Source: Fidelibacterota bacterium
Lineage (GTDB): Bacteria; Pseudomonadota; Alphaproteobacteria; Rhodospirillales; Rhodospirillaceae
NCBI GenBank assembly: GCA_947475895.1
Contig: CANJMF010000005.1
Coordinates: 62,001-126,000 of the forward strand
DNA: 64,000 nucleotides
Reading direction: 5' to 3'
In this document: positions 1 to 16,802 of the stretch, one piece after another
Position numbering within the stretch: position 1 is the first letter of the stretch
How the letters are laid out: each line of letters starts with the position of its first letter
Translations under genes and position numbers: made by a program
The notes under the pieces: generated by a model
Told to the model about the DNA's origin: nothing
What the model saw: only the letters and a program-made list of their open reading frames with translations
Databases searched by the model: none

Positions 1-675
1 TGGCGTGCCTATGAATTTCCACCGGAAGCACATCGCGATGGAATTCTCACGCAGGTGAGTTTCCTCGCGTTGCACTCTCATCCAACACGAAGCTCCGCAA
101 CGTTGCGCGGCAAAGCATTGCGCGAACTCATTCTCTGCCAGAAGGTGCCGCCGCCGCCGGCCAACGTCGATTTCTCGGCGCTCAACAATCCGGATGCGAC
201 CCTACGAACGGCCCGCGCGCGGCTCAGCGCCCATGCCCAAAACCCCGTGTGTGCCGGGTGCCACAAGATCACCGACCCTATGGGTCTCGCGCTCGAGAAC
301 TTTGACGGCGCCGGCCGCTATCGCACGGCGGAAAAAGACACACCGATCGATGCCAGCGGTAGCCTCGACGGCAAGCCGTTCACGGACGTTGTCGGTCTTG
401 GCCAAGCTGTCCATGACAGCCCGGCGCTGCCTTCGTGTCTCGTACGTCGTGCGTTTAGCTATGCCACGGCCGGAACGGTGCCAGTCACGGCTGAGCCCAC
501 ACTGGCTCAGTTGAACAAAAGCTTTGTCGGCGAGGGCTATCGTCTCCGGGCGTTATTGAAGGCAATCACGCTCAGCGAAGGCTTCTCGGACGTGACCCAA
601 CCAGCATCTAAGCCGGCAGCGCCGGAAAAAACCGCCAGCGTTTCGCTGCCGGGAAAAATTGCATCGAAGGAGTAG
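1..675 (+). CDS. DUF1592/DUF1588/DUF1585-family exported protein, C-terminal part (module A)
   Basis: The open frame runs in from base 1, so this is the 3' part of a longer gene; the GTG at 55 is internal. The translation matches the C-terminal 220 residues of the genes at 3503 and 12390: a Y-E-F/I-P segment, a S-H-P-x-R-S-S stretch, an LCQKVP block, the haem-type CAGCH motif in NPVCAGCHKITDP, a FDGAG block, and the DUF1585-like tail with S-C-L-V. These are the PSCyt3 (DUF1588) and PSD2 (DUF1585) families known from Planctomycetes, where they accompany c-type haem motifs; their biochemical role is unknown. One CXXCH is visible. The stop is 7 bases before the DUF1552 gene, so the two are probably co-transcribed. 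The N-terminus and any partner upstream lie outside the window. Confidence 0.85.
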   Translation, partial: WRAYEFPPEAHRDGILTQVSFLALHSHPTRSSATLRGKALRELILCQKVPPPPANVDFSALNNPDATLRTARARLSAHAQNPVCAGCHKITDPMGLALENFDGAGRYRTAEKDTPIDASGSLDGKPFTDVVGLGQAVHDSPALPSCLVRRAFSYATAGTVPVTAEPTLAQLNKSFVGEGYRLRALLKAITLSEGFSDVTQPASKPAAPEKTASVSLPGKIASKE

Positions 676-682
676 AGGAATC

Positions 683-2020
683 ATGAATGGTTTATCTCGC
701 CGCCGCGTTCTCCGCGGCGTCCTCAATGGCGGCGCCGTCACGGTCGGATTGCCGCTCCTCAATTATTATCTCAACGGCAACGGCACGGCGTTTGCCGACG
801 GAACACCGTTGCCCGTGCGCTTTGGGACCTGGAGCTGGGGGCTTGGAATGAGCCCGGCGGCTTTTGTGCCGAAGAAAACCGGTAAGGATTTCGAATTTCC
901 AGAGGAAATCGAAGCGCTTGCACCCCTGCGCGACAAGATCAACCTTCTTACGAATATCACCGCGTTTCGCGACAACTCGCAGCTGATGTGCCACTTCACC
1001 GGCTGGGCGATTTCACGCACAGGCAATGCACCGAACAGCCGCAATCTCAGCAGCGAAACTTACGATATCAAGATTGCCAACCAGATCAGCCGGTCGCGCC
1101 GTTTTAAAACGCTGACGGCCAATGCCGCAGCCGATGCGCGCGTCTCGTTCTCGTACGAGGACCCAAATACGCCGAACCCGGCCGAATATTCGCCGGTTCT
1201 GTTCTATTCGCGTTTGTTCGGACCCGAGTTTCCGAATCCGAATGCCAAAGAATTCAAACCCAGCCCACGCGCGATGTCGCGCAAGAGCGTCCTCTCGGCG
1301 GTCATGCAGGAGATGGATGCGGTCAATAAGCGCGTCGGCGCCGAAGATCGGGCGCGCCTCGACCAATATTTCACGGGGCTGCGTCACCTTGAACACCAGT
1401 TCGATCAGCAGCTGACAAAACCGGAGCCCATTGCCGCCTGTAATCCGCCGGCGGCTCCCAAAGACTCTGACATGAAGCTGGGCAATGAATCGCCGCTTGT
1501 CATTCAGCGGCACAAGATGATGACGGATCTGCTTGCCATGGCCGTCGCTTGCGATCAAACGCGCGTCATCAATATGGCGTACTGCGCCATGCTCTCGAAT
1601 ACGATCAAACCCGGCTATGAAAAGCCGCATCACACGACCACGCACGAAGAGCCGATCGACGAGAAGCTTGGCTACCAGCCGAACTGCTCGTGGTTCACGC
1701 GCCGCTGCATGGAGGGTTTTGCCTCTTACGTGCAAGCGTTCGCGAATATCAAGGAAGGCGACGGTACGCTGCTCGACAACATGCTCATCGTGGCCGATAC
1801 GGACCACGGTGTGGCCCGCCTACATTCTTTGGATGGCATGCCCGTCTTTACCGCCGGCCGCGCGGGCGGCAAGGTCAAAACGGGTTTGCATATCGATATG
1901 AAGGGCACGACGATCGCGCGCGTGGGATATACGGCCTTGCGTACGATGGGCGTCGATGTTCAAAAGTTCGGTGATCGCAGCAATACGACCTCCGACCTTA
2001 TCAGTGACATCCTGGTCTAA
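683..2020 (+). CDS. DUF1552 (HXXSHH family) Tat-exported protein, module A
   Basis: The 445-residue product starts at the ATG at 683, behind an AGAGGA-like ribosome site; a TTG 24 bases upstream is in frame but less likely. The N-terminus has a twin-arginine signal (SRRRVLRG, then a hydrophobic stretch), suggesting export of a folded, perhaps metal-bound protein. The rest matches PF07586 (DUF1552), of unknown function. The family signature region reads PHHTTTHEEP, a variant of H-x-x-S-H-H, and the same block recurs in the copies at 5158 and 14125. The C-terminus has a DTDHG segment and a FTAGRAGGK-like block, reminiscent of the metal-site regions of sulfatase/phosphatase-fold proteins; that comparison is inference. 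A hairpin terminator follows, so module A lacks the fourth gene of modules B and C. Confidence 0.85.
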   Translation: MNGLSRRRVLRGVLNGGAVTVGLPLLNYYLNGNGTAFADGTPLPVRFGTWSWGLGMSPAAFVPKKTGKDFEFPEEIEALAPLRDKINLLTNITAFRDNSQLMCHFTGWAISRTGNAPNSRNLSSETYDIKIANQISRSRRFKTLTANAAADARVSFSYEDPNTPNPAEYSPVLFYSRLFGPEFPNPNAKEFKPSPRAMSRKSVLSAVMQEMDAVNKRVGAEDRARLDQYFTGLRHLEHQFDQQLTKPEPIAACNPPAAPKDSDMKLGNESPLVIQRHKMMTDLLAMAVACDQTRVINMAYCAMLSNTIKPGYEKPHHTTTHEEPIDEKLGYQPNCSWFTRRCMEGFASYVQAFANIKEGDGTLLDNMLIVADTDHGVARLHSLDGMPVFTAGRAGGKVKTGLHIDMKGTTIARVGYTALRTMGVDVQKFGDRSNTTSDLISDILV

Positions 2021-2052
2021 AAAACGAGACCGAATCGGGCGTCCTTGAGCGG

Positions 2053-2081
2053 AAAATCCGCCCGTCAGGCGGTGATTTTTT
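2053..2081 (+). terminator. Probable intrinsic terminator after module A
   Basis: A short stem (AAAAT-CCGCC paired with GGCGG-ATTTT, with a two-base bulge) and loop CGTCA is followed by a run of six T. It lies 33 bases after the DUF1552 stop and separates modules A and B. Confidence 0.6.
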
Positions 2082-2245
2082 GTCATGATCTGGGGGAGGG
2101 GGACCGAAAACCCCGACCTAACGCGTGTCACGAACGCGTGTGCTTTTCGCGAAATCTACCGCTTGCGGGGTTTTATTAGCATTTCGCGTATTAGTATCGA
2201 GGCGATATTAACATTCTGCGCCTATATATAATTAGTAGGCATGTG

Positions 2246-2289
2246 TATAATCTGCCCTTACCTATGTCGCACCGGTCTGGGAGGTTTCG
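2246..2289 (+). promoter_or_regulatory. Candidate promoter and leader of module B
   Basis: A perfect TATAAT hexamer at 2246-2251 is followed by CT, later an ATGTC and then a strong GGGAGGT ribosome site before the ATG at 2290. The sequence before the module C gene at 11252 has the same elements at nearly the same distances. No convincing -35 box is seen at 16-18 bases, so the sigma factor is unclear. The flanking region 2082-2245 is AT-rich and holds no gene. Confidence 0.4.
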
Positions 2290-3453
2290 ATGGCGCTTGG
2301 GGTTAGTTCCTTTTTTCGTTTTTTGACGGGTCTGCAAGTCGGGACCTCGCGCGTTGCGTTGCTGGCTGCGCTGCCCTTAGCGCTTGTTGGTACCCCGGCA
2401 TCTGCCGAGACCATTGGCCTAGTCATGACTTCTTTTCATCTTGCGGGCCCGTTCACGAATGACGGGAAGAAAGAGTGCCCACAAGGCCTTAACCCGGATA
2501 ATCGCGACAATTTCCGCGCACAATATAAGACGCCGGAAGAGCAGAAAGAAATTCTCATCAAATACGGCTCAACCCAGATGCATTATCGGGGGCCGAACGG
2601 CGAGAGCGACACCTATAACCCGGAAGCTGTGAAAGATTTGCTGCCGTACTATGACGGGCTAGGAACTGTCAGCGTTGGCGTGAATCTCGACAGCACAAAA
2701 GACGGCCAAGCCACGGATAAGACCTGCAAACACGCTAAATTTGCAAATGAGTCAGGCGATGCCGTCGACAATCAGCTCTTCCGCGTTTTTGGCTGTGTTA
2801 AGGCTTTGCGTCCGCAAGGATTATACGACTCCTTCATCACGATGGAGATCCCACAGCTGGTCGTTAATCGCTGGCTGGTCGAGATCACGGGCGTCGATGA
2901 CCGAACCAACGATAACCAAGTGGACGTCACGATTGCACACGGCCTCGACGAGATCGTGCCGGACGGAAACGGTGGTTTCGTCGCAGGGCGGAGTCAGCGC
3001 GTCGACGAAAAGGCAGCCAGCTACATTCAGCACACAAAGGGACGCATTGTGAACGGCGTTCTGATTACCGATCCCATGCCTGAATTGCGCATCACCGGCT
3101 CGGGCATTATCGAAGTTTTTGAACGGCGTTTCAAAGATGCCCGCCTTCAGTTGAAGCTTACGCCGACAGGCGCTACGGGGTTTGTCGCGGCTTATCACGA
3201 TGTTCAACGCTTCTATCGCTTCCATGCGAAGTCGCTCGGCTTACACGGCGTTGCCGCCAACGTGAGCATGCCGTCCATCTATGCGTCGCTTCTTCGCAAC
3301 GCGGATGGGGATAAGGATCCGGCGACGGGACAGTGCACGTCGATTTCTGGCGTTTACACGATGGATTTTGTGAATGCGAACATCGTGCGCCAATCGTCGA
3401 AGAAAGAAGTGGCGGAAGTGATTTCCAAGGGCGCCGCTACAGCGCGGCCCTAA
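2290..3453 (+). CDS. Unrecognised secreted protein, first gene of module B
   Basis: This 387-residue protein has a Sec signal peptide (hydrophobic core ALLAALPLALV, likely cleavage after ASA near residue 40). I do not recognise a named domain. It is clearly related to the protein at 11252: both have an ECP-x-GLN block near the mature N-terminus, an R-G-x-N-G-E segment, a V-S-x-G-x-N-L-D segment and a conserved V-D-N-x-L-x-R-V-x-G-C motif, followed by a V-D-x-x-x-N-D-N segment. The rest reads as a compact beta-rich domain, possibly a binding protein. It starts an apparent operon: the DUF1592 gene begins 49 bases downstream. The start is supported by GGGAGG 6-11 bases upstream. Position and conservation suggest it works with the DUF1592/DUF1552 pair in the periplasm or at the cell surface. 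Confidence 0.8.
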   Translation: MALGVSSFFRFLTGLQVGTSRVALLAALPLALVGTPASAETIGLVMTSFHLAGPFTNDGKKECPQGLNPDNRDNFRAQYKTPEEQKEILIKYGSTQMHYRGPNGESDTYNPEAVKDLLPYYDGLGTVSVGVNLDSTKDGQATDKTCKHAKFANESGDAVDNQLFRVFGCVKALRPQGLYDSFITMEIPQLVVNRWLVEITGVDDRTNDNQVDVTIAHGLDEIVPDGNGGFVAGRSQRVDEKAASYIQHTKGRIVNGVLITDPMPELRITGSGIIEVFERRFKDARLQLKLTPTGATGFVAAYHDVQRFYRFHAKSLGLHGVAANVSMPSIYASLLRNADGDKDPATGQCTSISGVYTMDFVNANIVRQSSKKEVAEVISKGAATARP

Positions 3454-3502
3454 TCTTTAATTGGCGTTCGCGTACGGACGTTAAATGGAGGCTTGAGTTA
3501 CG

Positions 3503-5161
3503 ATGAAGTCAAAGTTTGTTTGGTTGGCATGTACCGTTGGATTGGTTCTGGCGTCGGCTACCGCCATTGCTCAGCAAAAGTCTGAGACACAGCCCGCGGC
3601 TGCGCGCGCGCGTCTTATTACGCAACCGCAATACGTCAATACGCTGCGTGCGATCTTCGGGCCGAACGTAAAGTATCCGTCAGCCCTTGCGCCGATGAAC
3701 CGCGTCGGTGGTTTGGTGGAGATCGGAGCTTCGGCCGCCGTCGTGACGGGGGGCGCGCTCGACCGGTTTGATAACGGTGCGCGATCGATTGCAAAGGACG
3801 TCTTCGATCCTTCGCATCGCGAATATTTGATGCCGTGTCGTCCCGCATCCGAAATGAAGCCGGACGACGCGTGCGCGCGCAAGTTTTTTGCGCAAGTGGG
3901 TCGCCTCTTGTTCCGTCGCGCTTTGACGGAAAAGGAACTGAAGGCTTACACGGACATTGCCCATGCGTCGGCAGTAAGCCTCGGTGATTTCTATTCAGGC
4001 ATGAGCGCCACCTTGTCAGGCATGCTTGTGGCGCCCGAATTTATATACGTTGCGCCGGCGACGGAGGTTGTGCGCGGGCACAGCCAGCTGACCGCAAACG
4101 CCAAGGCCGTGCGCCTTAGCATGTTGCTTTGGAATTCGTATCCGGACTCGGAATTGTTGACGGCCGCGGAGAATGGCTCACTCAACACCGACAAGGGATT
4201 GGTAAAGCAGGTCGACCGTCTGCTCGCGTCTCCGCGCCTTGCGGACGGCGTGCGGAACTTCTTCGCCGACATGCTGATATTCGAAAGCTTCGAAACGTTG
4301 GCAAAAGACGCGAAAATCTACCCCTCGTTCACGACCCAAGTTACGAACGACTCCAAGGAGCAAACCTTGCGGACGATCGTGTCTCATCTCGTGGACGAAA
4401 ATCTCGACTACCGCGATATTTTCACGACGCGAAAGACATTTTTGACGAATGATTTGGCCGCTGTTTATGGCGTGGCGATCAACGACCCCGACAGATGGGT
4501 TCCGTACGAATTCCCAGCCAACAGTCGGCGCGGCGGTCTTCTGACGCAAATCAGCTTCCTGGCGCTCTATTCTCATCCAGGTCGCAGTTCGCCGACGCGT
4601 CGCGGTCGCGCAATCCGTGAAATCTTTCTCTGCCAAAAGGTTCCGGATCCGCCGCCGAACGTAGATTTCAGTGCCATCGAGAACCCGGACCCGACAATCA
4701 AAACTGCGCGCGCGCGTTTGACGGCACATAGTGCGAATCCTGTTTGCGCGGGTTGCCACAAGATCACGGATCCGATCGGTCTCGCGCTTGAAAGCTTTGA
4801 TGGAGCGGGTTCGTATCGCGCCGATGAAAATGGCGCCGTGATCGATACGAGCGGCAAGTTGAACGACGCGAGCTTCGTCGATGCGACTGGCCTGGAAAAA
4901 GCGCTTCATGACAACCCGAGCACACCAAGCTGCCTTGTCCAAAGAATGACAAGCTACGCGCTTGGGCGGCAGGTTGGAGCGGATGATGCAAGTTTGCTGA
5001 GCGACGTTAATAGCAAGTTTGCGGCTAGCGGCTATCGCGTGAAGGATCTCTTACGCGTCATTGCTATGGATAAAACCTTTTACGCAGCGCCTCTTATCGA
5101 CAACAAACCGACAGTCGAAAAGGCCGACGCGGGAACATCAAAAGTAGGGAGCAAATCATGA
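3503..5161 (+). CDS. DUF1592/DUF1588/DUF1585-family exported monohaem protein, module B
   Basis: The 552-residue product has a Sec signal (ends ATAIA-QQ). Domains in order: a DUF1587-like start (RLITQPQYVNTLRAIFG), a DUF1595-like C-A-R-K-F-F...R-R-A-L-T-E-K-E block (residues about 120-155), the DUF1592 region (to about 350), DUF1588 with LCQKVP and one CAGCH motif (first Cys about residue 415), and DUF1585 at the C-terminus. These families are of unknown function; covalent haem at CXXCH is expected if a cytochrome c maturation system is present. GGAGG lies about 10 bases before the ATG. The last bases overlap the next start as ATGA, implying translational coupling with the DUF1552 gene. It is close kin of the partial gene at 1-675 and of the gene at 12390. 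Confidence 0.87.
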   Translation: MKSKFVWLACTVGLVLASATAIAQQKSETQPAAARARLITQPQYVNTLRAIFGPNVKYPSALAPMNRVGGLVEIGASAAVVTGGALDRFDNGARSIAKDVFDPSHREYLMPCRPASEMKPDDACARKFFAQVGRLLFRRALTEKELKAYTDIAHASAVSLGDFYSGMSATLSGMLVAPEFIYVAPATEVVRGHSQLTANAKAVRLSMLLWNSYPDSELLTAAENGSLNTDKGLVKQVDRLLASPRLADGVRNFFADMLIFESFETLAKDAKIYPSFTTQVTNDSKEQTLRTIVSHLVDENLDYRDIFTTRKTFLTNDLAAVYGVAINDPDRWVPYEFPANSRRGGLLTQISFLALYSHPGRSSPTRRGRAIREIFLCQKVPDPPPNVDFSAIENPDPTIKTARARLTAHSANPVCAGCHKITDPIGLALESFDGAGSYRADENGAVIDTSGKLNDASFVDATGLEKALHDNPSTPSCLVQRMTSYALGRQVGADDASLLSDVNSKFAASGYRVKDLLRVIAMDKTFYAAPLIDNKPTVEKADAGTSKVGSKS

Positions 5162-6495
5162 ACAACATTAATCGCAGACGTATTCTCCGCGGCATGCTCA
5201 ATGGCGCCGCCGTAACGGTGGCGCTGCCGTACCTTGAATGCTTCCTGAATAGCAATGGCACGGCTCTGGCTTCGGGCGCGCCGGTTCCCATTCGCTTCGG
5301 AACGTGGTTCTGGGGCCTTGGCATGACCAAGCAAATTTTCACGCCCACAAAAGTTGGCGCCGATTACGATCTGCCTGAGCAGATCGCGTCGTGGAAAGAC
5401 ATCAAGCAGCATGTGAATCTTTACTCGAACATGAACGTCTCCACCGACGGCCGTCCGGTGCCCTGTCACTACACGGGCTGGGTTTCGGTCATGACCGGCG
5501 AAGCGCCGCTGAATGGCAGTTCCTACCCGCGTGAAAGCATCGACGTGACGGTTGCTGATGCGATCGGAACAACGACGCGCTTCCGCTCGATGCAGTTGGC
5601 GGCGACCGCCAATCCGCGTTCGACCCACAGTTTCCGCAGCACCGAAGCGGTGAACCCACCGGAAGTGTCGGTGTCGGAATTGTATCAAAAAATCTTTGGA
5701 CCGGAGTTCCAAGATCCCAACTCGCCCAGCTTCACGCCGGACGTGCGGATCAAAACCCGTAAAAGCGTGTTGTCCGGAGTGATGGAGCAAAGCGCCGACT
5801 TCCGCCGCACACTGGGCAAAGCCGACCAGGCGCGTTTGGATGAATACTTCACAGCGACACGCGAGCTGGAAAGCCGCCTCGCGTTGCAGCTTGAAAAGCC
5901 CGATCCGGCGCCGGCGTGTAAGGTTCCGGCAGCAGCCAATAAAGAGCTTCCGGTCGGTATCGAATCGGAATTGCTGATCACGCGCCACAACCTCATGACG
6001 GATTTCTTAGTCATGGCACTGGCCTGCAATCAGACGCGCGTCTTCAATATGATGTATTCCGACGCCACGGCCGTGACGACCCGCAAGGGCTTCGCGAAGG
6101 TGCATCATACGATCACGCACGAAGAGCCCTATGACGTGAAGCTCGGCTATCAAACCGAAGCCTCATGGTTCGTGACGCGCTCCATGGAGTCCTTCGCATA
6201 CTTCGTGAAGGCGCTGGCGAAGTTCAAAGAAGGCGATGCGACGCTCCTCGATCGCAGCTTGGTGTTTGGGTATTCCGACTTGTCGCTTGCCCAGGCCCAC
6301 TCGTTGGTCGGTATTCCGATGATGACGGCCGGTTCTGCCGGTGGTCGCCTTAAAACCGGAATTCACTTCGACGGAAAAGGCGCGCCCGTAACACGGGTCG
6401 GCTTAACCGTGCAGCAGGCCTTGGGATTGCAAACCGCTGAATGGGGTCAGAACTCCATGAGGACCAGCCAGGCCATCGGAGAAGTCCTGGTCTAG
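5158..6495 (+). CDS. DUF1552 (HXXSHH family) Tat-exported protein, module B
   Basis: The 445-residue product begins with a twin-arginine signal (NRRRILRG plus hydrophobic stretch). The body matches DUF1552 (PF07586) end to end and aligns with the copies at 683 and 14125. The signature block here is VHHTITHEEPYD, keeping the paired His, Thr-His and Glu-Glu-Pro positions. A YSDLS segment replaces the DTDHG segment of copy A, so one potential ligand region differs between copies. The start overlaps the upstream stop by 4 bases (ATGA), with GGGAG 8 bases upstream. The gene downstream is a Lipoprotein_15 protein 31 bases away. The function is unknown; conserved pairing with the haem protein suggests a complex or an electron-transfer or metal-handling pathway in the periplasm (inference). 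Confidence 0.87.
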   Translation: MNNINRRRILRGMLNGAAVTVALPYLECFLNSNGTALASGAPVPIRFGTWFWGLGMTKQIFTPTKVGADYDLPEQIASWKDIKQHVNLYSNMNVSTDGRPVPCHYTGWVSVMTGEAPLNGSSYPRESIDVTVADAIGTTTRFRSMQLAATANPRSTHSFRSTEAVNPPEVSVSELYQKIFGPEFQDPNSPSFTPDVRIKTRKSVLSGVMEQSADFRRTLGKADQARLDEYFTATRELESRLALQLEKPDPAPACKVPAAANKELPVGIESELLITRHNLMTDFLVMALACNQTRVFNMMYSDATAVTTRKGFAKVHHTITHEEPYDVKLGYQTEASWFVTRSMESFAYFVKALAKFKEGDATLLDRSLVFGYSDLSLAQAHSLVGIPMMTAGSAGGRLKTGIHFDGKGAPVTRVGLTVQQALGLQTAEWGQNSMRTSQAIGEVLV

Positions 6496-6526
6496 GTTCA
6501 AAACGCATACGACGGGAGTGATGAAG

Positions 6527-7861
6527 ATGAATTTCGCCGGACGTACTATTCTTGGAGCGTGTTCCGTCGCAGCGATTGCGGCGTTGCTGACGCCCCAGCT
6601 GTCGCTTGCTGCGGATATGAAACTTGGCTTGAAGGATGAGCCTCGGCCGGCCGTCATCACGCTTCAAGAAACGGAGGAGGGGGGCGTGTTCGCCGACAAA
6701 AACGGCATGACCCTTTATACCGACCGTGACGAGACGAAACCCAATACGCCTGCTTGTACCTATGATGTCCCGATTTTGGGGGAGGTGGCTGAAGCCGATG
6801 ATATACGCGCGTTTCCGCCCTACCCCAATCCGACGACATGCCTGCACAAGCATAAGCCGGTTGTCGATATTGGCGACGGCAAGGCCGTAGGTCCGTGGGC
6901 GGTCATTGAGGATTCCTACGGGATCAAACAGTGGGCGTATAAGGGACACGTGGTTTATACGTCCGTCAAAGATCTCGCGGTGGGACAAAACTGGCTCGAC
7001 ATCGAGACAGGGCTGCGTCAGGGCAGAAAGAGATTTTTGACCCTTTTCGCACCGTTGGAACTGCCACCCGATATTACGGTGCAGGAAGTTGGCGTTGCGA
7101 AGGTGTTCGCAACATACTCAGGCCGCACGCTCTACACGCTGACACAAGATCGTGTCGGCAAAAGCATGTGCGACGGCGCGTGTTTGGACCAGTGGAAGCC
7201 ATTCCTGGGTGGGGCGCTCTCGCAGCCACGCGGGGAATGGACTCTCGTGACGCGTGACGATCACACGCGCCAATGGGCCTTCCGCGGTAAGCCACTGTAC
7301 CAGTTCGCTTCCGACAAAGCGGCCGGCGATACACGGGGCAATAACCTTCCGGGCGCTCTGGTGGCGGTTGCATACCCAGCTGCGCGCGAACCATCATCCG
7401 TGACGATCCAGGGAACCCCCGTCGGTGACTTGTACGCCGACGACAAGGGCATGACGCTCTACGCTTATATCTGCCCAGGATCAGGCGGCCGAGAATGCGA
7501 CGATCCCACTGAAAAGATGAATTGGTGGTACGTCATCTGCGGCAACACGCCCGAAAAATGCGCAAAAGAATGGAAGCCGTTTCTCGCTTCGGAGAATGCC
7601 AAGCCTACGGGCGGAACCTGGACGACTGTGAGCATGCCGCTTCCTTGGTCGCCCGTGATGGCCGCCCCGGGCAGCAAGGAGCCAAGCGTGAAAGTCTGGG
7701 CTTATAAAGGCCGTCCGTTGTTCACCCACGCAAATGAAGACCGTCCAGGCATGATCGATGGCATGGACATCGGGACCCTAGGCGGGCCGAAGTGGTTTTC
7801 AATTCGCGCGACCGGCGCAGACTTGAATAGAAAGACCACTGCCATTCAGGCTGCACGCTAA
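6527..7861 (+). CDS. Secreted Lipoprotein_15 (PF03640) multi-repeat protein, module B
   Basis: The product of about 444 residues has a Sec signal ending LSLAAD; no lipobox is visible despite the family name. The start at 6527 is preferred because GGAG lies 8 bases upstream; ATG 6521 and GTG 6518 are too close to it. The mature part has three or more units of the 'secreted repeat of unknown function' type: each begins near a G-V-F/L-Y-A-D-x-x-G-M-T-L-Y block and ends at a W-A-Y/F-x-G-x-P-L-Y/F block. Between them are Cys pairs and a W-K-P-F-L segment. Such repeats occur in small exported proteins of unknown role. It closes the module B operon; a strong terminator follows at 7885. The related gene in module C is at 15450. 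Confidence 0.82.
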   Translation: MNFAGRTILGACSVAAIAALLTPQLSLAADMKLGLKDEPRPAVITLQETEEGGVFADKNGMTLYTDRDETKPNTPACTYDVPILGEVAEADDIRAFPPYPNPTTCLHKHKPVVDIGDGKAVGPWAVIEDSYGIKQWAYKGHVVYTSVKDLAVGQNWLDIETGLRQGRKRFLTLFAPLELPPDITVQEVGVAKVFATYSGRTLYTLTQDRVGKSMCDGACLDQWKPFLGGALSQPRGEWTLVTRDDHTRQWAFRGKPLYQFASDKAAGDTRGNNLPGALVAVAYPAAREPSSVTIQGTPVGDLYADDKGMTLYAYICPGSGGRECDDPTEKMNWWYVICGNTPEKCAKEWKPFLASENAKPTGGTWTTVSMPLPWSPVMAAPGSKEPSVKVWAYKGRPLFTHANEDRPGMIDGMDIGTLGGPKWFSIRATGADLNRKTTAIQAAR

Positions 7862-7884
7862 GACGATCGTTTCACAAAAAGAAT

Positions 7885-7919
7885 GGCCCCGATTCCTTGC
7901 TGGAATCGGGGCCTTTTTT
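7885..7919 (+). terminator. Strong intrinsic terminator after module B
   Basis: A perfect 12-bp stem (GGCCCCGATTCC with GGAATCGGGGCC) with a 5-base loop is followed by six T, 23 bases after the stop at 7861. Confidence 0.93.
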
Positions 7920-8982: not shown

Positions 8983-9420
8983 AGGTTTTCTTTCACGACG
9001 TCATGAGACATCAAAGTTGTTGTCGCGCGCGCGGCGCGCCTCGAAGGAGTCGCAGCGGGTGTGATCGACTGGAAAAGATCGAAAATTGAACAGGTTCCAC
9101 TACGCCCCACGCCGATGGACCTTGGGGATAGGCCCGCGCGGGCTTCGAATGTGAATGTGCGAATGGTTAACACGCTAAGCATTAATGTGGCGGATGTCCA
9201 CGAATCATTGGGCTAAATCAAATATAGAGTCGGAGGGGGTTGTAAAAGGAGCGCCTTCATCGCATATCCCATGCTGGAAAGCTTCGTGCTTCGGCAATCT
9301 CTTCATTGCGTCTCGATCCGCCACGAATGCCCCCCACTTGTAAACAATGTCATCGCGGTGAACGGCGCAGCTACTTTCCAGCGCCGGCTGCGGACAACAC
9401 GAAATTCAGGAGAACGATCG
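8983..9420. promoter_or_regulatory. Intergenic region upstream of gcrA with GANTC sites
   Basis: No convincing gene is seen here. GANTC sites, the CcrM methylation target of many Alphaproteobacteria, occur at 9202-9206 (GAATC) and 9227-9231 (GAGTC), with another GAGTC near 9047. The 9227 site follows an AAATATAGA stretch that could be a -10 region. GcrA is known in Caulobacter to act at promoters with methylated GANTC near -10, so feedback on its own gene is plausible. If transcription starts here, the gcrA leader is about 180 bases. Confidence 0.4.
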
Positions 9421-9819
9421 ATGCCGAATGAAGGACGCGATGAAACAGGTTGGACCGAGGAACGGATCGACCGGCTAGGGAAGCTTTGGCAGGAAGGATC
9501 GAGCACCGCGGCAATCGGAAAATTGCTGGGCATATCGAAGAATGCTGTCGTCGGTAAGGTTCATCGACTGAAGCTTAAGGGCCGGCCTTCGCCGATCAGT
9601 GGGGGGAGTAGATCGCCACAACCGAAGCAAAAAGCGCCTCCACGTATTTACACCATGGAAGATTTGTCGTCGCAAACGTGCCGCTGGCCGAGCGGTGATC
9701 CGCAGCACGAAGATTTCCAGTTCTGCGGCCGCCCCCCGACGCCGGGCAAGCCCTATTGTGCCAAGCACTGCGACGCCGGCTATGCCACGGCTAAGCCCAA
9801 GCCCAAGCCGGCCTCCTAA
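9421..9819 (+). CDS. gcrA: GcrA family cell cycle regulator
   Basis: GcrA is a small sigma70-associated transcription regulator that works at promoters carrying CcrM-methylated GANTC sites to drive cell-cycle genes. The 132-residue product shows both conserved ends: the N-terminal helix-turn-helix-like block W-T-E-E-R-I-D-R-L...A-V-V-G-K-V-H-R-L, and the C-terminal Cys/His block with C-R-W-P-x-G-D-P...F-x-F-C-G...P-Y-C-x-x-H. The basic, proline-rich linker is usual. The ATG at 9421 is chosen because AGGAG lies about 10 bases upstream and the protein then begins just before the conserved block; an ATG at 9271 would add 50 residues unlike the family. The gene stands alone, transcribed toward the cold-shock gene. 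Confidence 0.93.
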   Translation: MPNEGRDETGWTEERIDRLGKLWQEGSSTAAIGKLLGISKNAVVGKVHRLKLKGRPSPISGGSRSPQPKQKAPPRIYTMEDLSSQTCRWPSGDPQHEDFQFCGRPPTPGKPYCAKHCDAGYATAKPKPKPAS

Positions 9820-9996: not shown

Positions 9997-10097
9997 GCCC
10001 TTTTTGGGCTCCTCCCAGGACATCGCTGAATTCGTAAAAACGGCTCCGCGATTGTCGCGTGGCCGATGACACGCACTCGTGCGTTTTCTTAAGGAGG
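9997..10097 (+). promoter_or_regulatory. Structured leader of the cold-shock gene
   Basis: Three short hairpins can be drawn upstream of the csp start: GCCC/GGGC at 9997-10009, CGCG/CGCG at 10047-10059, and ACGCA-CTCG-TGCGT at 10071-10084 followed by TTTTCTT just before the AAGGAGG ribosome site. Cold-shock mRNAs commonly have long structured leaders that control stability and translation. The region 9820-9996 shows nothing further. Confidence 0.35.
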
Positions 10098-10102
10098 CCA
10101 AC

Positions 10103-10306: not shown

Positions 10307-10325
10307 TACTGCGACGTTCTAAAAA

Positions 10326-10355
10326 AGCCCGGTGCGAAAGCGCCGGGCTTTTTTT
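10326..10355 (+). terminator. Intrinsic terminator of the cold-shock gene
   Basis: The stem AGCCCGGTGC/GCGCCGGGCT, with one G-T pair and a GAAA tetraloop, is followed by at least six T, 19 bases after the stop. Confidence 0.93.
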
Positions 10356-10500
10356 ATTCCGGGCGCCGTTTAGCCGGCGAGGGGCCTGCCCCAGTTCGCC
10401 CCTTATTCACGCCGCTGAGGCCGCCCTTGCGTCTGGGGGCAGTCCCAACACCTCCCCCGCCTTGGCTCTCCTGCACGACCCTAAAAGGGGCCAGCGCTAG

Positions 10501-11022: not shown

Positions 11023-11049
11023 CCAATTGAAACTGCAGGAAGAAAGTGA

Positions 11050-11085
11050 TGGGCGATATTAGGGACTGACCCTACGACCCACCCG
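11050..11085 (-). repeat. Degenerate 3' fragment of tRNA-Val, possible attachment-site remnant
   Basis: These 36 bases align with 18673-18708, the 3' half of the intact tRNA-Val from next to the anticodon to the discriminator base: 32 identities, 3 mismatches and 2 one-base gaps. The orientation is the same as the tRNA gene. Similarity stops next to the anticodon and there is no CCA. The T-loop is damaged, so it is not a functional tRNA. Confidence 0.7.
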
Positions 11086-11209
11086 AGCAAATCGCCAAAT
11101 TATGTAGTTAAGCTCATAAATTCGCGCTTACCGTTACACGCTGGTTAGAGCGTCGAATTCGCCGCTAGGCGGCATCGCGCAACGCGCCATACAATACTGC
11201 GCCGGGCGT

Positions 11210-11251
11210 TATAATCTTCGTTCCGAACGCCATGTCTTGGGGAGGTAGGCT
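11210..11251 (+). promoter_or_regulatory. Candidate promoter and leader of module C
   Basis: TATAAT at 11210-11215 followed by CT, then ATGTC and a GGGGAGGT ribosome site, mirrors the leader of module B at 2246-2289. The distance from TATAAT to the start codon is 42 bases here and 44 there. No clear -35 box is seen. Confidence 0.4.
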
Positions 11252-12382
11252 ATGCGCATTCTGTCTGCGCGTCGATTTGCGCTGGGCGCCTTCGTGCCAA
11301 TGATTGCGATGTTTGGGTCTGTCCCCGCTAAGGCGGCTTCAGTTGAGCAGGCGCCACCTCCAAACGGCACGATCGCTTATGTGGTCACGACCGTACTGCC
11401 CGCCGTCTATCAAACCTCCGATGCCAAAGCAGAATGTCCGACCGGGCTCAATGCGACCCATCTCGAGCAATACGAGGCTCAATTCCCGACGGAAGAGGCC
11501 CGCAAAGCGCAACGACGGGATTACGGTTACTTCCACAATCGCGGACGGAACGGCGAGAACGTCCACTACAGTCCCGAAAGCGTCGTCGATCCGTTGCCGT
11601 TCAAAGAAGCGGTGGGCAAGGTTTCACTCGGATTGAACCTCGATGGAAAAGTAGGGCCGAATGATTTCGTCTCGCCCGACGGCGAAGCTGGCGTAGACAA
11701 CGAATTGTATCGCGTTCTCGGCTGCATTTCGGGCTGGCGCGACAACGGAACGATGACGTTTCAAAACGAAGTCCGTATGCGCGACAATCGCTTCAATCGG
11801 ATCATCTTTGTTTTGTCTGGCGTCGACAATCTCGAGAACGATAACGAGGTAACGATCAGAACGTATCGCGGCCTCGACAACGTGCCGCTCGATAGTCTGA
11901 ATAAGGGCGTGCCCGGAAGTACGCAGAGAATCGATTTTAAATTCGGTCAGCGATACATGCACGTATTCAAAGGCAAAATCGTCAACGGCGTGCTGACGAC
12001 GACCGCACCCGCCGATTACGTTATGCCGTGGTCGATCATTGGCGACGGACGTTTTGCGGGCGACGAGCAATGGTACCGCGAAGCACGCCTGCAGCTGAAA
12101 GTGGACTCTCGCCGGGCGGAAGGTCTGCTTGCAGGGTATGTGGATGTAGCAGGGTGGTGGTGGGCTTACACCAAGCGAACGTCCGCCCATATCGGTGACG
12201 CTGTACGTAGCAGCCCGCCGTCGGTCTGGGTCGCGCTAAAACGACGGGCGGACGCGTTTCCGGATCCTGTTACCGGTCAGAACACTGCGATCTCGACGGC
12301 CGTCGCGTTGAAGTTTGTTCGCGCCGAAATCAGCAACTTGCCAAAAGAAGAGACACAGCATCTCGCATCGGCTGCAAAGTAA
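11252..12382 (+). CDS. Unrecognised secreted protein, first gene of module C
   Basis: The 376-residue protein has a Sec signal (likely cleavage after AKA near residue 29). It is a divergent paralogue of the protein at 2290, sharing the E-C-P-T-G-L-N block, R-G-R-N-G-E, V-S-L-G-L-N-L-D, the V-D-N-E-L-Y-R-V-L-G-C motif and a V-D-N-x-x-N-D-N segment. No named family is recognised. The one Cys in the V-D-N motif and the early E-C-P Cys are kept in both copies and could form a disulfide. GGAGGT lies 6 bases before the ATG. The next gene starts 7 bases after the stop, so coupling is likely. Confidence 0.8.
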   Translation: MRILSARRFALGAFVPMIAMFGSVPAKAASVEQAPPPNGTIAYVVTTVLPAVYQTSDAKAECPTGLNATHLEQYEAQFPTEEARKAQRRDYGYFHNRGRNGENVHYSPESVVDPLPFKEAVGKVSLGLNLDGKVGPNDFVSPDGEAGVDNELYRVLGCISGWRDNGTMTFQNEVRMRDNRFNRIIFVLSGVDNLENDNEVTIRTYRGLDNVPLDSLNKGVPGSTQRIDFKFGQRYMHVFKGKIVNGVLTTTAPADYVMPWSIIGDGRFAGDEQWYREARLQLKVDSRRAEGLLAGYVDVAGWWWAYTKRTSAHIGDAVRSSPPSVWVALKRRADAFPDPVTGQNTAISTAVALKFVRAEISNLPKEETQHLASAAK

Positions 12383-12389
12383 CCCCGGA

Positions 12390-14078
12390 ATGTTGCATAA
12401 TCCATATAGTAGCGTTGACCGCGTGCGTCGGCTGACAAACGTAGCCATGATCATTGGCGCGGCGTGCTATTTAGTGAGCTGCAGCGATGCCCCGACGTCA
12501 CACCTAAATCAGCAGGTTTCCCCGACTTCGTCCGCCGCCTCGACAGCGCGCATGAGACTCATGTCTCAGGACGAATATGCTTATGCCATCGGTGATCTCT
12601 TCGGGCCCGACGTCGAGGTGACGCAGACCATTCCGCGCGCGCCGCGCGTCACAGGGTTGTTGGCGGTCGGTACAGGGGTGGCCGCCGTCACGCCGTCAAT
12701 GGTCGAGCGGTTTCATCGCGATTCTCATCTCATTGCTGAGCAAGTGGTTGGCAAGGCGCGCCGCGAATTTCTTGTCCCCTGCAAGCCGGCGGGAATAAGC
12801 GCCGCGGACGCGGCCTGTGCCGACAAGTTCATTACCACCGTTGGACGCCGGTTGTTCCGGCGTCCGCTTTCGGAAGCCGAACACAAAAGCATGGTTCAGG
12901 CTGCCGGTGAGGGCGCGGTGCGGCTCAAGGACTTCTACGCCGGTCTGTCCTTTACCCTGGCTGGGATGATCTCCTCGCCGCAGTTCATGTTGCTGACGGA
13001 GACGACAGAGGTTGATCCCCATAACGCGAGACGCCAGCGACTGACGGGCTATGCGAAGGCCCAAAGGCTCAGCCTCTTTTTCTGGGATTCTATTCCGGAC
13101 GAACAGTTGCTGCGCGCGGCCGAGCGCGGCGACCTCCATACCGAGCGCGGGGTGGCTCAACAAATCGATCGCCTCGTGAACTCACCGCAGCTTGAACGCG
13201 GGGTGCGGGCTTTTTTCAGTGACATGCTCGCCTTCGAAACCTTTGCTGACGTTGCAAAAGACAACGTGATCTATCCCGCATTCACACAGGCGACCGTTCC
13301 TGAGGCCAAAGAGCAGGCACTGCGGATGATTGCGCATCATCTCGTTGCCGAGCGCGGCGACTATCGTGAATTGTTTACCAGCCGAAAGACGTTCGTTACC
13401 CCGAATTTGGCAATTCTGATGGGCATCATCGCGCCCGGTCCAGGTTGGTCGGAATATGAAATTCCGCAAAGCAGCCAACGGGTCGGCCTGCTCAGCCAAG
13501 TGGGGTTTACATCCCTTTATGCACATCCCGGTCGCAGTTCGCCGACGCGACGCGGCAAGGCAATCCGCGAGCTCGTGTTGTGTCAGAAGGTGCCGGATCC
13601 GCCGGCCAACGTTGATTTCTCCGGCTTTGAGGATCCGCGCGGTAAAATGAACACGGCCCGTGATCGGTTGACGGCGCATGCGACCAATCCGGTCTGTGCC
13701 GGGTGTCACAAAATTACAGATCCGATTGGCCTGTCGCTCGAGAATTTCGATGGCGCAGGGCAGTTCCGAACCACTGAAGGAGACGCCGCAATTGATCCTT
13801 CGGGTACACTTGACGGCGTCGCGTTCAACACGCCCGAAGGTCTGGGAAAAGCCTTGCACGATAGCCCCGCGTTGACGTCGTGTTTGGTCTCGCGCCTTTA
13901 CAGTTTTGCATTGGCTAAGGCGCCAGGTGCGAACGAAAAGGATTATTTGGAGACGCTGAGGGCGAAATTTGCCGGTGCCGGATATCGCGTTCCGGACTTG
14001 ATGCGCATGATATCGAACGACGCTGCATTTTTCGCATTGGCCGCCGCGCCAACGACTGTTGCAGGGGTAACTCCGTGA
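12390..14078 (+). CDS. DUF1592/DUF1588/DUF1585-family monohaem lipoprotein, module C
   Basis: The product of about 562 residues has the same domain order as the gene at 3503: a DUF1587-like start (RLMSQDEYAYAIGDLFG), DUF1595-like R-R-P-L-S-E-A-E, DUF1592, DUF1588 with LCQKVP and one CAGCH, and DUF1585. Unlike copy B it carries a lipobox (LVSC followed by Ser), so it is likely lipidated and, by the +2 rule, sorted to the outer membrane. The ATG at 12390 is chosen because the longer in-frame start at 12315 overlaps the upstream gene and puts 25 extra residues before the signal. The ribosome site is weak. The DUF1552 partner follows after 46 bases. Confidence 0.85.
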   Translation: MLHNPYSSVDRVRRLTNVAMIIGAACYLVSCSDAPTSHLNQQVSPTSSAASTARMRLMSQDEYAYAIGDLFGPDVEVTQTIPRAPRVTGLLAVGTGVAAVTPSMVERFHRDSHLIAEQVVGKARREFLVPCKPAGISAADAACADKFITTVGRRLFRRPLSEAEHKSMVQAAGEGAVRLKDFYAGLSFTLAGMISSPQFMLLTETTEVDPHNARRQRLTGYAKAQRLSLFFWDSIPDEQLLRAAERGDLHTERGVAQQIDRLVNSPQLERGVRAFFSDMLAFETFADVAKDNVIYPAFTQATVPEAKEQALRMIAHHLVAERGDYRELFTSRKTFVTPNLAILMGIIAPGPGWSEYEIPQSSQRVGLLSQVGFTSLYAHPGRSSPTRRGKAIRELVLCQKVPDPPANVDFSGFEDPRGKMNTARDRLTAHATNPVCAGCHKITDPIGLSLENFDGAGQFRTTEGDAAIDPSGTLDGVAFNTPEGLGKALHDSPALTSCLVSRLYSFALAKAPGANEKDYLETLRAKFAGAGYRVPDLMRMISNDAAFFALAAAPTTVAGVTP

Positions 14079-14124
14079 TGCTTCTTTTTTTAAGCCCGAC
14101 AATGACAGGCCAAGGAGCGACGTT

Positions 14125-15453
14125 ATGAATTCCTTCAGCAGGCGCCGTGTTCTCAGAGGCGTAGTGGGCGGTAGTGCGGTGACCGTAGGTCTTCCGCTCC
14201 TGAATTGTTTTTTAAATGGCAATGGTACGGCGCTTGCTAACGGCGCACCGATGCCTGTTCGGTTTGCGACTTGGTACTGGGCGCTTGGAATGCAAAAGAA
14301 GATCTTTGTGCCCAAGACGGTCGGCGCCAACTACGACCTGCCCGAAGAGTTGCAACCGCTTAAGGACGTGAAGCAACATATCAACGTTTACAGCGACTTT
14401 GACGTCCTCAGGGACTCGTCAGCTGCCGTTTGCCATTACACGGGATGGGTGGCTTTGCGGTGTGGCGCGGTACCCAAGGGGCGCGGTGACCTTCCGAGTC
14501 CAAGCCTGGACGTTTACGTCGCTCAAAAGATCGGTACGGGGACGCGCTTCCCGGCGCTCTACGCCACAGCCACGGGCAATCCTACAAACTCGTACAGTTT
14601 CCGTGGCCCAAATGCGCTCAATCCCTCGGTCGCGTCGCCGCTTGAGCTTTATAATCAGGTGTTCGGCGCCGATTTCCAGGATCCGAACACGCCCGTCTTC
14701 ACGCCAAACCCGCGGGTTATGGTGAAGCGGAGCGTTCTATCCGGTGTTCTCGAACAGGCTAAGGATCTCGAACGCAATCTTGGGTCGGAAGATCGTGCCA
14801 GGATGGACCAATATTTTACGGGTCTGCGCGATTTGGAGCGGCAACTCGCCGGCCAGCTTGAGAAGCCAAGACCAATCGCGGCGTGCCGCGCTCCGACGAA
14901 GCCGGCCGAAATTCCCGTTGGTCTTCCCTGGGAACGCATCGCGCTTCGGCACAAGCTGATGACCGAGATCTTGCAAATGGCCGTCGTGTGCGATCAGACG
15001 CGTGTGGTCAATATGGTCGGTTCGTCTCAAGAGGCGACGAAGGAAGGTGTGGCGCAAGCTCACCACAATACGACGCACGAGGAGCCGGTGGACGAGGCGC
15101 TGGGATACCAACCGCTGACGTCATTCTTTACCCGTCGCGCAATGGACAACTGGGCGCAATTTGTCGGGGCGTTCGCTAATGCCAAAGAAGGCGACGGTAC
15201 GGTCCTCGATAATATGCTGATTTATGCTGACTCTGACCAATCGTACGCCAGGGTTCACGGACTGGACGGTCTTCCAATGTTTACGGCTGGCCGTGCTGGC
15301 GGACGTTTAAAAACCGGAATCCATGTCAACGGCGCTCATACCCCCGGATCGCGCGTTGGCTATACGGCCTTGCGTACGATGGGCGTTGATATGGAGGCTT
15401 GGGGCGCGCAGTCGAACCGCACATCGAAGGAAGTTGGAGAAGTCGTGGTATGA
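14125..15453 (+). CDS. DUF1552 (HXXSHH family) Tat-exported protein, module C
   Basis: The 442-residue product has the twin-arginine signal SRRRVLRG and a hydrophobic stretch nearly identical to copy A. DUF1552 spans the rest. The signature block is AHHNTTHEEPVD. An ADSDQSYAR segment aligns with copy A's DTDHG and copy B's YSDLS region. AAGGAG lies about 9 bases before the ATG. The stop overlaps the next start as ATGA. The sequence is closer to copy A than to B around the C-terminal V-G-Y-T-A-L-R-T-M-G-V-D block. Confidence 0.87.
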   Translation: MNSFSRRRVLRGVVGGSAVTVGLPLLNCFLNGNGTALANGAPMPVRFATWYWALGMQKKIFVPKTVGANYDLPEELQPLKDVKQHINVYSDFDVLRDSSAAVCHYTGWVALRCGAVPKGRGDLPSPSLDVYVAQKIGTGTRFPALYATATGNPTNSYSFRGPNALNPSVASPLELYNQVFGADFQDPNTPVFTPNPRVMVKRSVLSGVLEQAKDLERNLGSEDRARMDQYFTGLRDLERQLAGQLEKPRPIAACRAPTKPAEIPVGLPWERIALRHKLMTEILQMAVVCDQTRVVNMVGSSQEATKEGVAQAHHNTTHEEPVDEALGYQPLTSFFTRRAMDNWAQFVGAFANAKEGDGTVLDNMLIYADSDQSYARVHGLDGLPMFTAGRAGGRLKTGIHVNGAHTPGSRVGYTALRTMGVDMEAWGAQSNRTSKEVGEVVV

Positions 15454-16802
15454 CGCTTTGCTTTCAGCGTGCGCGATTGCGCCGAAGCGTGACCTTGGGC
15501 TCCTTTGTTATTTTCGCACTCGCTTTCGGTCCCGTCGAAAAATCCATTGCGGCGGAACGCTGGATTGAGGAACCGACGCCTCAAAACTTTCACGTGGAAA
15601 TGACGGATTTTGACGGTCCGGTATATGCCGACGCGCGCGGCATGACGATATACACGTGGAGTAAAGACAAGAGCGGCGAGTCCGCCTGCAATGCTGACCG
15701 ATACGTTGATAGCGTTCACATGGGATATGACTTTTCCCTTCAGGAACCTGAGCGTCGGCCGACCTGTGAGCAAGTGTGGCTTCCTGTCCGCGCAGAGCCA
15801 AGCGCGATGTCGGTCGGAGAGTGGTCGATCGTCAGCCGGCACGACGGCTCGCGCCAATGGGCCTACAGCGGTGCGCCTCTTTACACCTACGCATTCGACC
15901 ACATGCCGGGTGCCGTGAACGAAGTAAATCGCGATTGGCCGTCTGTGCTCAAGGGGGGCCGTGAGCCCTTGTCGCCAAAGTTGGACAATCCGCCTGGCGT
16001 CGTGGTGCAAGTGTTTCCCCAAGGGGGCCGGGTGCTGACGACGATCGACGGCGCGGTCTTATATTTTACTGATCCGAAATTGAAGAATAAAGCCGGCGAC
16101 GCATTCGCCCCCTTCTTAGCGCCTCAGCTCATTAAACCGCGCGGCGATTGGTCACTCGTCAAGTTGAAGGACGGAAGCGCGCAATGGGCCTATGAAGGCC
16201 GCCCGCTGTTCTATCCCGTTTTAGAAAAGACGCGCCTCGAAGCACCGCCGGATTTTATCGCAGAGGGCGGGTGGCGTCCGGTTCGGCTCATTGCCGAGGA
16301 TGTTCCGGGCTGGAGCCCTGTCATTGTTCAAGCAGCGCCTAAACCGCCCGCTGGCGTGATTGTGCAACGAACAGCGGCAGGTGACATCCTCGCGGATTCG
16401 CGCGGCCACACGCTCTATGCATTGCATTGTATGGAAAGATCACCGGACGAGTTGGCCTGCGACAATCCCGGTGCCAGCGGACGTTATCGTCAGGAGGTTT
16501 GCGGTACATGGGAGCAATGTGAGAAGACGTGGCCGCGGCTGTTGGCGGAGCCAAACGCGAAACCCGGCAACCGCACTTGGTCCATTGCCACCATTGACCG
16601 TACGACCGGGCGCTTCTCATCGGAGCTCGACCAAAATGCCGTGCGAATTTGGCTTTACCGTGGGCACCCACTTTATAGGTTTGCCGGCGACGTGAAGCCC
16701 GGGGACGTCAAAGCTCAATTCGTCAACGACTACCTCATGGATTTTTATTATCTGCGTGTGCTTTCCACATCGTCAGACTACGACCCATCTAAGGCTCAGT
16801 AG
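15450..16802 (+). CDS. Secreted Lipoprotein_15 (PF03640) multi-repeat protein, module C
   Basis: The product of about 450 residues starts at the ATG overlapping the DUF1552 stop; a longer frame from 15399 lies inside that gene. A Sec signal ends near SIAAE. It has three or four repeats like those of the protein at 6527: V-Y-A-D-A-R-G-M-T-I-Y, V-L-T-T-I-D-G-A-V-L-Y and I-L-A-D-S-R-G-H-T-L-Y openings paired with W-A-Y-S/E-G-x-P-L and W-L-Y-R-G-H-P-L-Y closings. Cys pairs between repeats suggest disulfides. No lipobox is seen. It ends the module C operon. Confidence 0.82.
   Translation: MTLCFQRARLRRSVTLGSFVIFALAFGPVEKSIAAERWIEEPTPQNFHVEMTDFDGPVYADARGMTIYTWSKDKSGESACNADRYVDSVHMGYDFSLQEPERRPTCEQVWLPVRAEPSAMSVGEWSIVSRHDGSRQWAYSGAPLYTYAFDHMPGAVNEVNRDWPSVLKGGREPLSPKLDNPPGVVVQVFPQGGRVLTTIDGAVLYFTDPKLKNKAGDAFAPFLAPQLIKPRGDWSLVKLKDGSAQWAYEGRPLFYPVLEKTRLEAPPDFIAEGGWRPVRLIAEDVPGWSPVIVQAAPKPPAGVIVQRTAAGDILADSRGHTLYALHCMERSPDELACDNPGASGRYRQEVCGTWEQCEKTWPRLLAEPNAKPGNRTWSIATIDRTTGRFSSELDQNAVRIWLYRGHPLYRFAGDVKPGDVKAQFVNDYLMDFYYLRVLSTSSDYDPSKAQ

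Follow-up and report, generated by a model that had tools for sequence, protein, structure and literature searches.

Fourteen copies of a four-gene exported haem/DUF1552 module in one bacterial genome: a possible periplasmic oxidoreductase system

The stretch analyzed here (the window) comprises 64,000 nucleotides of a Rhodospirillaceae genome (assembly GCA_947475895.1, contig CANJMF010000005.1, here C5:62001-126000), and its first part carries a repeated module drawn from four gene families. These were designated F1 (a secreted protein with no named family), F2 (a DUF1592/1588/1585 protein with one CXXCH motif), F3 (a twin-arginine DUF1552 protein, HXXSHH in Pfam) and F0 (a protein with Lipoprotein_15 repeats). 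Copy number, gene order and occurrence in other bacteria strongly support the view that the families make up one co-inherited exported system. We read the four proteins as a single exported oxidoreductase, periplasmic and haem-linked, which has been multiplied into substrate-specific versions, and give this reading a probability of about 0.5.

Copy number, gene order and distribution of the module

Three modules, A, B and C, lie in the window, with the following genes and associated signal:

1-675, + strand: module A F2, C-terminal part with PSCyt3, PSD2 and one CXXCH; the gene starts outside the window at C5:60897
683-2020, + strand: module A F3, twin-arginine DUF1552 (HXXSHH) protein of 445 amino acids (Pfam, predicted structure)
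2290-3453, + strand: module B F1, secreted protein without Pfam family
3503-5161, + strand: module B F2, PSD5-PSD4-PSCyt3-PSD2 with one CXXCH (Pfam)
5158-6495, + strand: module B F3, twin-arginine DUF1552 protein; start overlaps the F2 stop
6518-7861, + strand: module B F0, secreted Lipoprotein_15 repeat protein; start GTG at 6518 or ATG at 6527
7885-7913, + strand: putative terminator-like hairpin immediately past module B, with 12 pairs, 9 of them GC, and a T run behind it (consensus scan)
11252-12382, + strand: module C F1, secreted protein (structure predicted)
about 12447-14078, + strand: module C F2, DUF1592-type with one CXXCH; alternative start TTG at 12315
14125-15453, + strand: module C F3, twin-arginine DUF1552 protein
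15450-16802, + strand: module C F0, Lipoprotein_15 repeat protein; its ATG lies within an ATGA overlapping the F3 stop

The genes of modules B and C, with their coordinates and the order F1-F2-F3-F0, are present as an earlier sequence-only reading of this DNA had described them, and so are the overlaps it reported at 5158 (from the open reading frame ends) and at 15450 (where the ATGA was read directly). That reading had credited module A with at least the middle two genes. F2 and F3 are indeed there, and the statement fell short of what the contig holds: F0 was found at C5:56524 and C5:58154, F1 at 59728 and the start of F2 at 60897, so module A too is a four-gene module, in the order F0-F1-F2-F3, which begins before the window. 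The domain assignments proposed earlier for F2, F3 and F0 all exceeded their Pfam cut-offs (PSD5, PSD4, PSCyt3 and PSD2 in F2 of modules B and C; PSCyt3 and PSD2 in the module A F2 piece, whose PSD4 precedes the window at C5:61599; HXXSHH in all three F3 proteins; Lipoprotein_15 in the F0 proteins of modules B and C). Export of the products is predicted from signal-like N-termini and from the twin arginines of F3. The hairpin after module B was the strongest among 28 terminator-like sites in the window (mean in shuffled sequences, 20.0); a consensus scan of the window gave two promoter-like sites, below the shuffle mean of 7.1.

Profile searches of the whole genome (3,299,865 bases in 36 contigs, estimated completeness 100%) recovered 14 DUF1552 genes and 14 DUF1592 genes, every pair of them adjacent. 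In 13 of the 14 modules all four families are contiguous on one strand with nothing between them and gaps of -4 to 278 bases. The order in these is a rotation, F1-F2-F3-F0 in six, F2-F3-F0-F1 in four and F0-F1-F2-F3 in three. In the fourteenth module, on contig C17, F0 is absent from the run and F1 is fused in frame to F2 in a gene encoding 875 amino acids (L018:10581-13205, minus strand; C17:20577-23204), which is the only fusion among the 14 F2 genes of the genome. With the fusion counted there are 22 copies of F1 genome-wide, and 21 multi-repeat F0 proteins were found in stretches chosen around profile matches; eight genes of each of these two families stand apart from the 14 modules, most of them in F0-F1 pairs. 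One module, complete and alone on a contig of 6296 bases (C31), has F2 and F3 proteins 77% like those of module B and is possibly a duplicate or an assembly repeat.

Across 13 or 14 modules the distances within one family followed those of its partners (r of 0.95 for F2-F3, 0.94 for F0-F1, 0.79 for F1-F3, 0.78 for F1-F2, 0.74 for F0-F3 and 0.73 for F0-F2), and none of 2000 permutations reached any observed value. F2-F3 and F0-F1 look like two sub-pairs. Correlated divergence of this kind is expected from joint duplication and is by itself no proof of contact.

None of the 119 further genomes sampled from this order had a DUF1552 match, and among 385 sampled from the class six, with this one included, were above cut-off (eight of 385 at an expectation value (E) of 0.001). 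F1 was matched in two of the 299 genomes of the phylum sample, again including this one. A scan started from F1 found 243 places, the best 80 of which yielded 78 relative loci. Hydrocarboniphaga effusa, three Solimonas species, Steroidobacter, Peristeroidobacter, Kordiimonas, Woeseiaceae and a large number of metagenome-assembled genomes (MAGs) are represented. By record title the module is present in Alpha- and Gammaproteobacteria; Solimonas, Hydrocarboniphaga, Steroidobacter, Kordiimonas and MAGs have the complete module, and plasmids of Sphingobium carry F1-F2-F3. Of 70 F3 genes in these loci, 54 lie within a run holding all four families, a run which may span two modules, and the in-run partners number 59 for F2, 65 for F0 and 62 for F1; 14 of the 16 incomplete runs sit no more than 6 kb from the start of the locus or 4.5 kb from its end.

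The 78 loci had been found through F1 and are biased toward it, so a set started from DUF1552 is the fairer test of adjacency. Among the matches listed, this set held 15 loci, spread over five further genomes of the class, with F2 adjacent in 15 of 15, F1 in 13 and F0 in nine; the two listed loci without F1 are two copies in one genome and resemble the planctomycete type. The sequence-only reading had suggested a single machine, a view that rare adjacency in other genomes would speak against. DUF1592 was instead found beside DUF1552 at every listed locus, and the four-family runs in relatives, the F1-F2 fusion and the partner correlations, highest for F2-F3 and F0-F1, argue in the same direction. 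The patchy spread between lineages suggests horizontal transfer. Several MAGs (L032, L036, L048 and other CAN-prefixed and CAMDOZ records) are titled Candidatus Marinimicrobia, yet their modules resemble the proteobacterial ones, which would reflect either transfer or mislabelled records.

Properties of the four proteins and their redox surroundings

All 14 F3 copies of the genome scored 137-164 bits against PF07586 (cut-off 30). The structure of the module A protein, modelled from 44 aligned sequences (predicted local distance difference test (pLDDT) 86.6, predicted template modelling (pTM) score 0.83), matched 19 PDB chains of the alkaline phosphatase superfamily at E<=0.001 in a Foldseek search; these matches were mostly sulfatases and extended to LtaS and phosphoglycerate mutase, the best being choline sulfatase 6fny (E 4.7e-5, template modelling (TM) score 0.37). 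A viral structure library gave no match at E<=0.001, and its best four (E 0.004-0.015) were sulfatase/alkaline-phosphatase-type proteins. On the strength of this model F3 is predicted to have an alkaline-phosphatase-superfamily fold, remotely related. When the F3 profile was compared with 27 sulfatases, the strand LLDNMLIVADTDHG aligned, weakly, with the SDHG strand of the sulfatases.

Residues are numbered as in the module A protein. Four histidines, H104, H317, H321 and H381, are invariant in 51 of 51 F3 sequences, including those of Sphingobium and a planctomycete, as are S202, D222, R234, E237 and D365. H317 and H321 are the paired histidines of the name motif, H-x-x-[S/T]-H, and are kept in all 51, and at the last H of HXXSHH all 44 closer members have E, with A or N in two of the distant ones. 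The D-H metal pair of active hydrolases, which follows the last core strand, was not found conserved across the 51 sequences: H375 is present in 14 of 44 closer members (seven of this genome's 14) and missing from all seven distant ones, and D374 is kept in 37 of the 44 (13 of 14 in this genome). Since H375 is mostly lost and other histidines are invariant, the usual hydrolytic metal pair is not what DUF1552 conserves. The loop with H104 would correspond, by eye and outside the profile alignment, to the CxPSR nucleophile loop of sulfatases.

Each of the 14 F2 proteins contains exactly one CXXCH and a PSD4 domain above cut-off. An N-terminal PSD3 (DUF1587) domain scored 19.1 and 22.2 bits in modules B and C against a cut-off of 23, and the module C protein has by eye a lipobox-like LVSC. 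From its motif we infer F2 to be a carrier of a single c-type haem.

No Pfam family was found at E 0.01 for F1 of modules B and C, nor any NCBIfam family for the module C copy, and in searches with one copy each NCBIfam gave no name for F1, F2 or F3. The module C F1 model, built from 79 sequences (pLDDT 89.7, pTM 0.87), consists mainly of beta strands with helices too, and nothing in the PDB matched it at E<=0.001 (the nearest, at E 0.011 and TM 0.17, was a photosystem II chain). When solved structures were searched with the F1, F2, F3 and F0 profiles, only two matches were returned, to unrelated chains at E 0.17 and 0.2. F0 is a cysteine-containing repeat protein whose Lipoprotein_15 (PF03640) scores were 96.8 and 106 bits (cut-off 24.4), and a lipobox-like motif was seen in only two of 21. 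F1 and F0 are less conserved than F3, diverge together pairwise, and are found without F2-F3 too.

A cytochrome c family occurs in 19 of the 78 relative loci, with three CXXCH motifs in 18 and two in one that is cut; the gene lies less than 310 bp before F2 in eight loci, 1.6-2.3 kb before it in five and elsewhere in six. On two Sphingobium plasmids (L115, L116) F1-F2-F3 is followed by a cytochrome c' gene (PF01322 in both) and by a b-type cytochrome gene (b561, PF01292 in L116 and by annotation in L115), and on a third (L117) by a glyoxalase-family gene. In two further genomes (L143, L144) the module is followed by frames which by eye resemble 2Fe-2S and molybdenum dehydrogenase subunits. After an F0-F1 pair on contig C16 of this genome (L022:9613-15774) one run held, by eye, 2Fe-2S and molybdenum dehydrogenase subunits with cytochrome c, flavocytochrome and Sox-like genes; the Pfam scan there covered the molybdenum subunit only. 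The suggestion made from sequence that the machine was perhaps redox- or metal-linked gains, on the redox side, from the cytochrome genes that some relatives have next to the module, and on the metal side it draws on conserved histidines and a remote alkaline-phosphatase-superfamily fold, the redox function being putative and the metal binding predicted.

Proposed mechanism, alternatives and substrates

A redox function is likely, in view of the partner with a haem motif and of the cytochromes found in some relatives, and catalysis by F3 through a putative histidine metal site is plausible. In the mechanism we propose, the four proteins would make up one unit, either periplasmic or on the face of the outer membrane. 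F3 would cross the membrane already folded, because of its twin-arginine signal, and probably metal-loaded, and its remodelled alkaline-phosphatase-type pocket with the four invariant histidines would be the likely substrate and metal site. The single haem of F2 would take electrons from F3 and pass them to a membrane or periplasmic cytochrome (the triheme cytochrome c, or cytochrome c' with b561), from which they would reach the respiratory chain, and the mostly beta F1 and the repeat protein F0 would hold or present the substrate. Different molecules would be handled by the fourteen versions; they may be amino-acid-derived nitrogen compounds or hydroxy/oxo acids, and TonB-dependent receptors would import some of them. 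What we infer here comprises complex formation, the binding of haem and of metal, electron flow, catalysis by F3 and the substrate.

Several points weigh against the oxidoreductase. One haem in F2 is little for such an enzyme, and no redox cofactor was identified in F3; the putative four-histidine metal site is defined by sequence conservation. No triheme cytochrome of the kind described is seen in 59 of the 78 relative loci (many incomplete), and the two homologues in this genome are on contigs C2 and C24, which carry no modules. The structural match of F3 is remote (TM about 0.37), and the profile match to sulfatases covered 74 columns with a probability of 25% and an E of 8e-4 for one comparison. 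Part of the classical D-H site may survive in F3, because D374 is kept in 37 of 44. The catabolic neighbours of the modules are diverse, with Rieske, flavin, monooxygenase and molybdenum-type genes too, and the closeness of TonB receptors to F1/F3 genes, with 11 of 22 receptors within 10 kb (p 1.4e-6), was not significant at 5 kb (4/22, p 0.051) or 3 kb (3/22, p 0.09). A bolder form of the reading is doubtful: DUF1552 would be a redox metalloenzyme on an alkaline-phosphatase scaffold, in which a four-histidine metal site takes the place of the nucleophile and of part of the classical metal ligands, whose electrons would pass to respiration through a dedicated c-type haem protein, and which with F1 and F0 would form an exported dehydrogenase multiplied into substrate-specific versions (like the SusCD pairs of Bacteroidota) and passed between distant lineages.

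The fold of F3, with its matches to sulfatases, LtaS and phosphoglycerate mutase, and a D-H pair kept wholly or in part (D374 in 37/44 and H375 in 14/44 closer members) would also suit an ordinary hydrolase of the superfamily acting on a sulphate, phosphate or similar ester, with F2 as accessory or sensor. We consider this unlikely, as half of the copies in this genome, 23 of 30 closer relatives and seven of seven distant members lack H375 while the histidine set is invariant, and as constant coupling to a haem protein, with further cytochromes in some relatives, would be unexpected. It is rather improbable that the module serves TonB substrate capture without chemistry of its own, F1 and F0 binding surface ligands and F2-F3 being structural. 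The F0 and F1 genes outside modules, the mainly beta prediction for F1 and the 11 of 22 receptors that have an F1 or F3 gene within 10 kb fit this explanation, but the receptor enrichment fails at 3-5 kb, a receptor of the F4 type lies within four genes of only 18 of 101 F1 genes in relatives, and twin-arginine export and haem would be costly for a passive role.

Still less probable is an oxidation of sugars or glycosides followed by cleavage, as suspected for the planctomycete-type cytochromes of the Planctomycetes-Verrucomicrobia-Chlamydiae (PVC) bacteria. The Planctomyces SH-PL62 gene pair is followed by a 3-keto-disaccharide hydrolase, and Verrucomicrobia PSCyt genes occur with carbohydrate-binding modules in the account given in parts of PMC5615132; however, no glycoside hydrolase, 3-keto-disaccharide hydrolase included, was recognized among the recurring proteobacterial neighbours, of which selected representatives were Pfam-scanned. 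Finally, a single exported haem-type protein and the cytochrome c' beside the module in Sphingobium, a family that binds nitric oxide, could belong to an amplified stress or detoxification system handling peroxide, nitric oxide or metals. This explanation is very improbable, since fourteen divergent versions among different catabolic genes fit substrate diversity better.

Returning to the oxidoreductase, its substrates were sought among neighbouring genes. Three loci, in Solimonas, Hydrocarboniphaga and Steroidobacter, have a HutC-type regulator upstream; that of Solimonas scored 273.7 bits against a cut-off of 220. One locus (L058) has before F2 a symporter, an agmatinase (197.7 against 174.3) and a 5-guanidino-2-oxopentanoate decarboxylase (831.6 against 500); a carbamoylase/allantoate-type amidase occurs in three loci (one scored, 446 against 204), and creatininase-family genes in seven loci and in this genome (one scored, PF02633 above cut-off). 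The hydantoinase-like gene that comes after module C is of the same amino-acid-related kind. Near modules of this genome we found a 2-oxoacid dehydrogenase E1-type gene (below equivalog cut-offs), a flavin mononucleotide (FMN) 2-hydroxyacid dehydrogenase-type gene, a thiamine pyrophosphate (TPP) enzyme and an aldehyde dehydrogenase. As the neighbours are diverse and the counts have no background rate, they point only weakly to amino-acid-derived compounds. Breakdown of tomatine, an idea drawn from the tomato-root Sphingobium plasmids, was set aside, the portions of PMC10653915 consulted giving it no support.

Neighbouring features and relation to known systems

Other features of the window and genome are:

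17032-18585, + strand: secreted dihydropyrimidinase/hydantoinase-like amidohydrolase, 229 bases past module C, a possible associate
9415-9816: GcrA, in line with a probable placement in Alphaproteobacteria
18895-19308: small response regulator adjoining the next feature
19318-22851, - strand: by eye a CheB-CheR-PAS-histidine kinase hybrid of 1177 amino acids

A terminator-like site on the + strand was looked for between module C and 17032 and none was found. The hydantoinase-like protein scored 329.5 bits against 393, under its equivalog cut-off, and bears a signal-like N-terminus; the family is usually cytosolic, and exported members are odd. Proteins with TQ-rich short repeats (by eye, e.g. 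STTQ(I/F)) are encoded at L030:3743-10483 (C21:11742-18482), L027:5692-8217 (C3:93691-96216) and L036:8151-9866, with 2246 and 841 amino acids in this genome and 572 in a MAG carrying modules.

Fourteen natural variants in a 3.3-Mb genome, together with their catabolic neighbours, make the question of the planctomycete-type cytochromes testable, and cultured carriers (Solimonas, Hydrocarboniphaga, Steroidobacter and Kordiimonas, with F1-F2-F3 in Sphingobium) allow ordinary laboratory work. The redox reading, if true, would mean a new respiratory enzyme class on an unexpected scaffold, and F1 would stand as a new protein family, one for which no fold has been solved.

In the open-licence PMC literature searched, no account of the four-gene module, of F1 or of the expansion turned up, and no functional study of DUF1552, of DUF1592 and its relatives, of Lipoprotein_15/COG4315/SCO0930 or of PSCyt/DUF1501 was recognized. 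A pairing of F2-type genes with unknown genes has already been reported in Verrucomicrobia: according to parts of PMC5615132, PSCyt2 and PSCyt3 genes there usually adjoin each of two gene families of unknown function, PSCyt3 genes usually stand beside one unknown family with many copies in some genomes, and planctomycete-type cytochrome genes are numerous in some PVC bacteria beside families of unknown function. The name DUF1552 was absent from those parts of the main text of PMC5615132, and the record contains three occurrences of it.

DUF1501 (PF07394), with four matches elsewhere in this genome, is a planctomycete family that has twin arginines and is associated with PSCyt; close homology to F3 was rejected, the profile comparison not being significant (E 0.19). 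F0 scored 73.5 bits against the SCO0930 family (NF040526), far under the NCBIfam cut-off of 275. With the alkaline phosphatase superfamily (PF00884 and relatives) F3 shares the overall fold and a local match around the SDHG strand, and it differs in that the histidine of the D-H pair is not conserved, four histidines are invariant and a haem protein is its partner. Cbp2D of Cellvibrio, as described in parts of PMC8981238, combines a DUF1587 planctomycete-type domain with the haem domain X183 in one protein, but its context is that of lytic polysaccharide monooxygenases (LPMO) and cellulose, and F1, F3 and F0 go unmentioned in those parts. A closely comparable locus is on a plasmid of Planctomyces SH-PL62 (L118), where a gene for a DUF1592-type haem protein stands next to a DUF1552 gene. 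Neither F1 nor F0 has a match there, PSCyt1/DUF1587 forms a protein of its own and the DUF1592 protein is longer, whereas the proteobacterial F2, set against this and the Verrucomicrobia type, has one CXXCH only and is accompanied by F1 and usually by F0.

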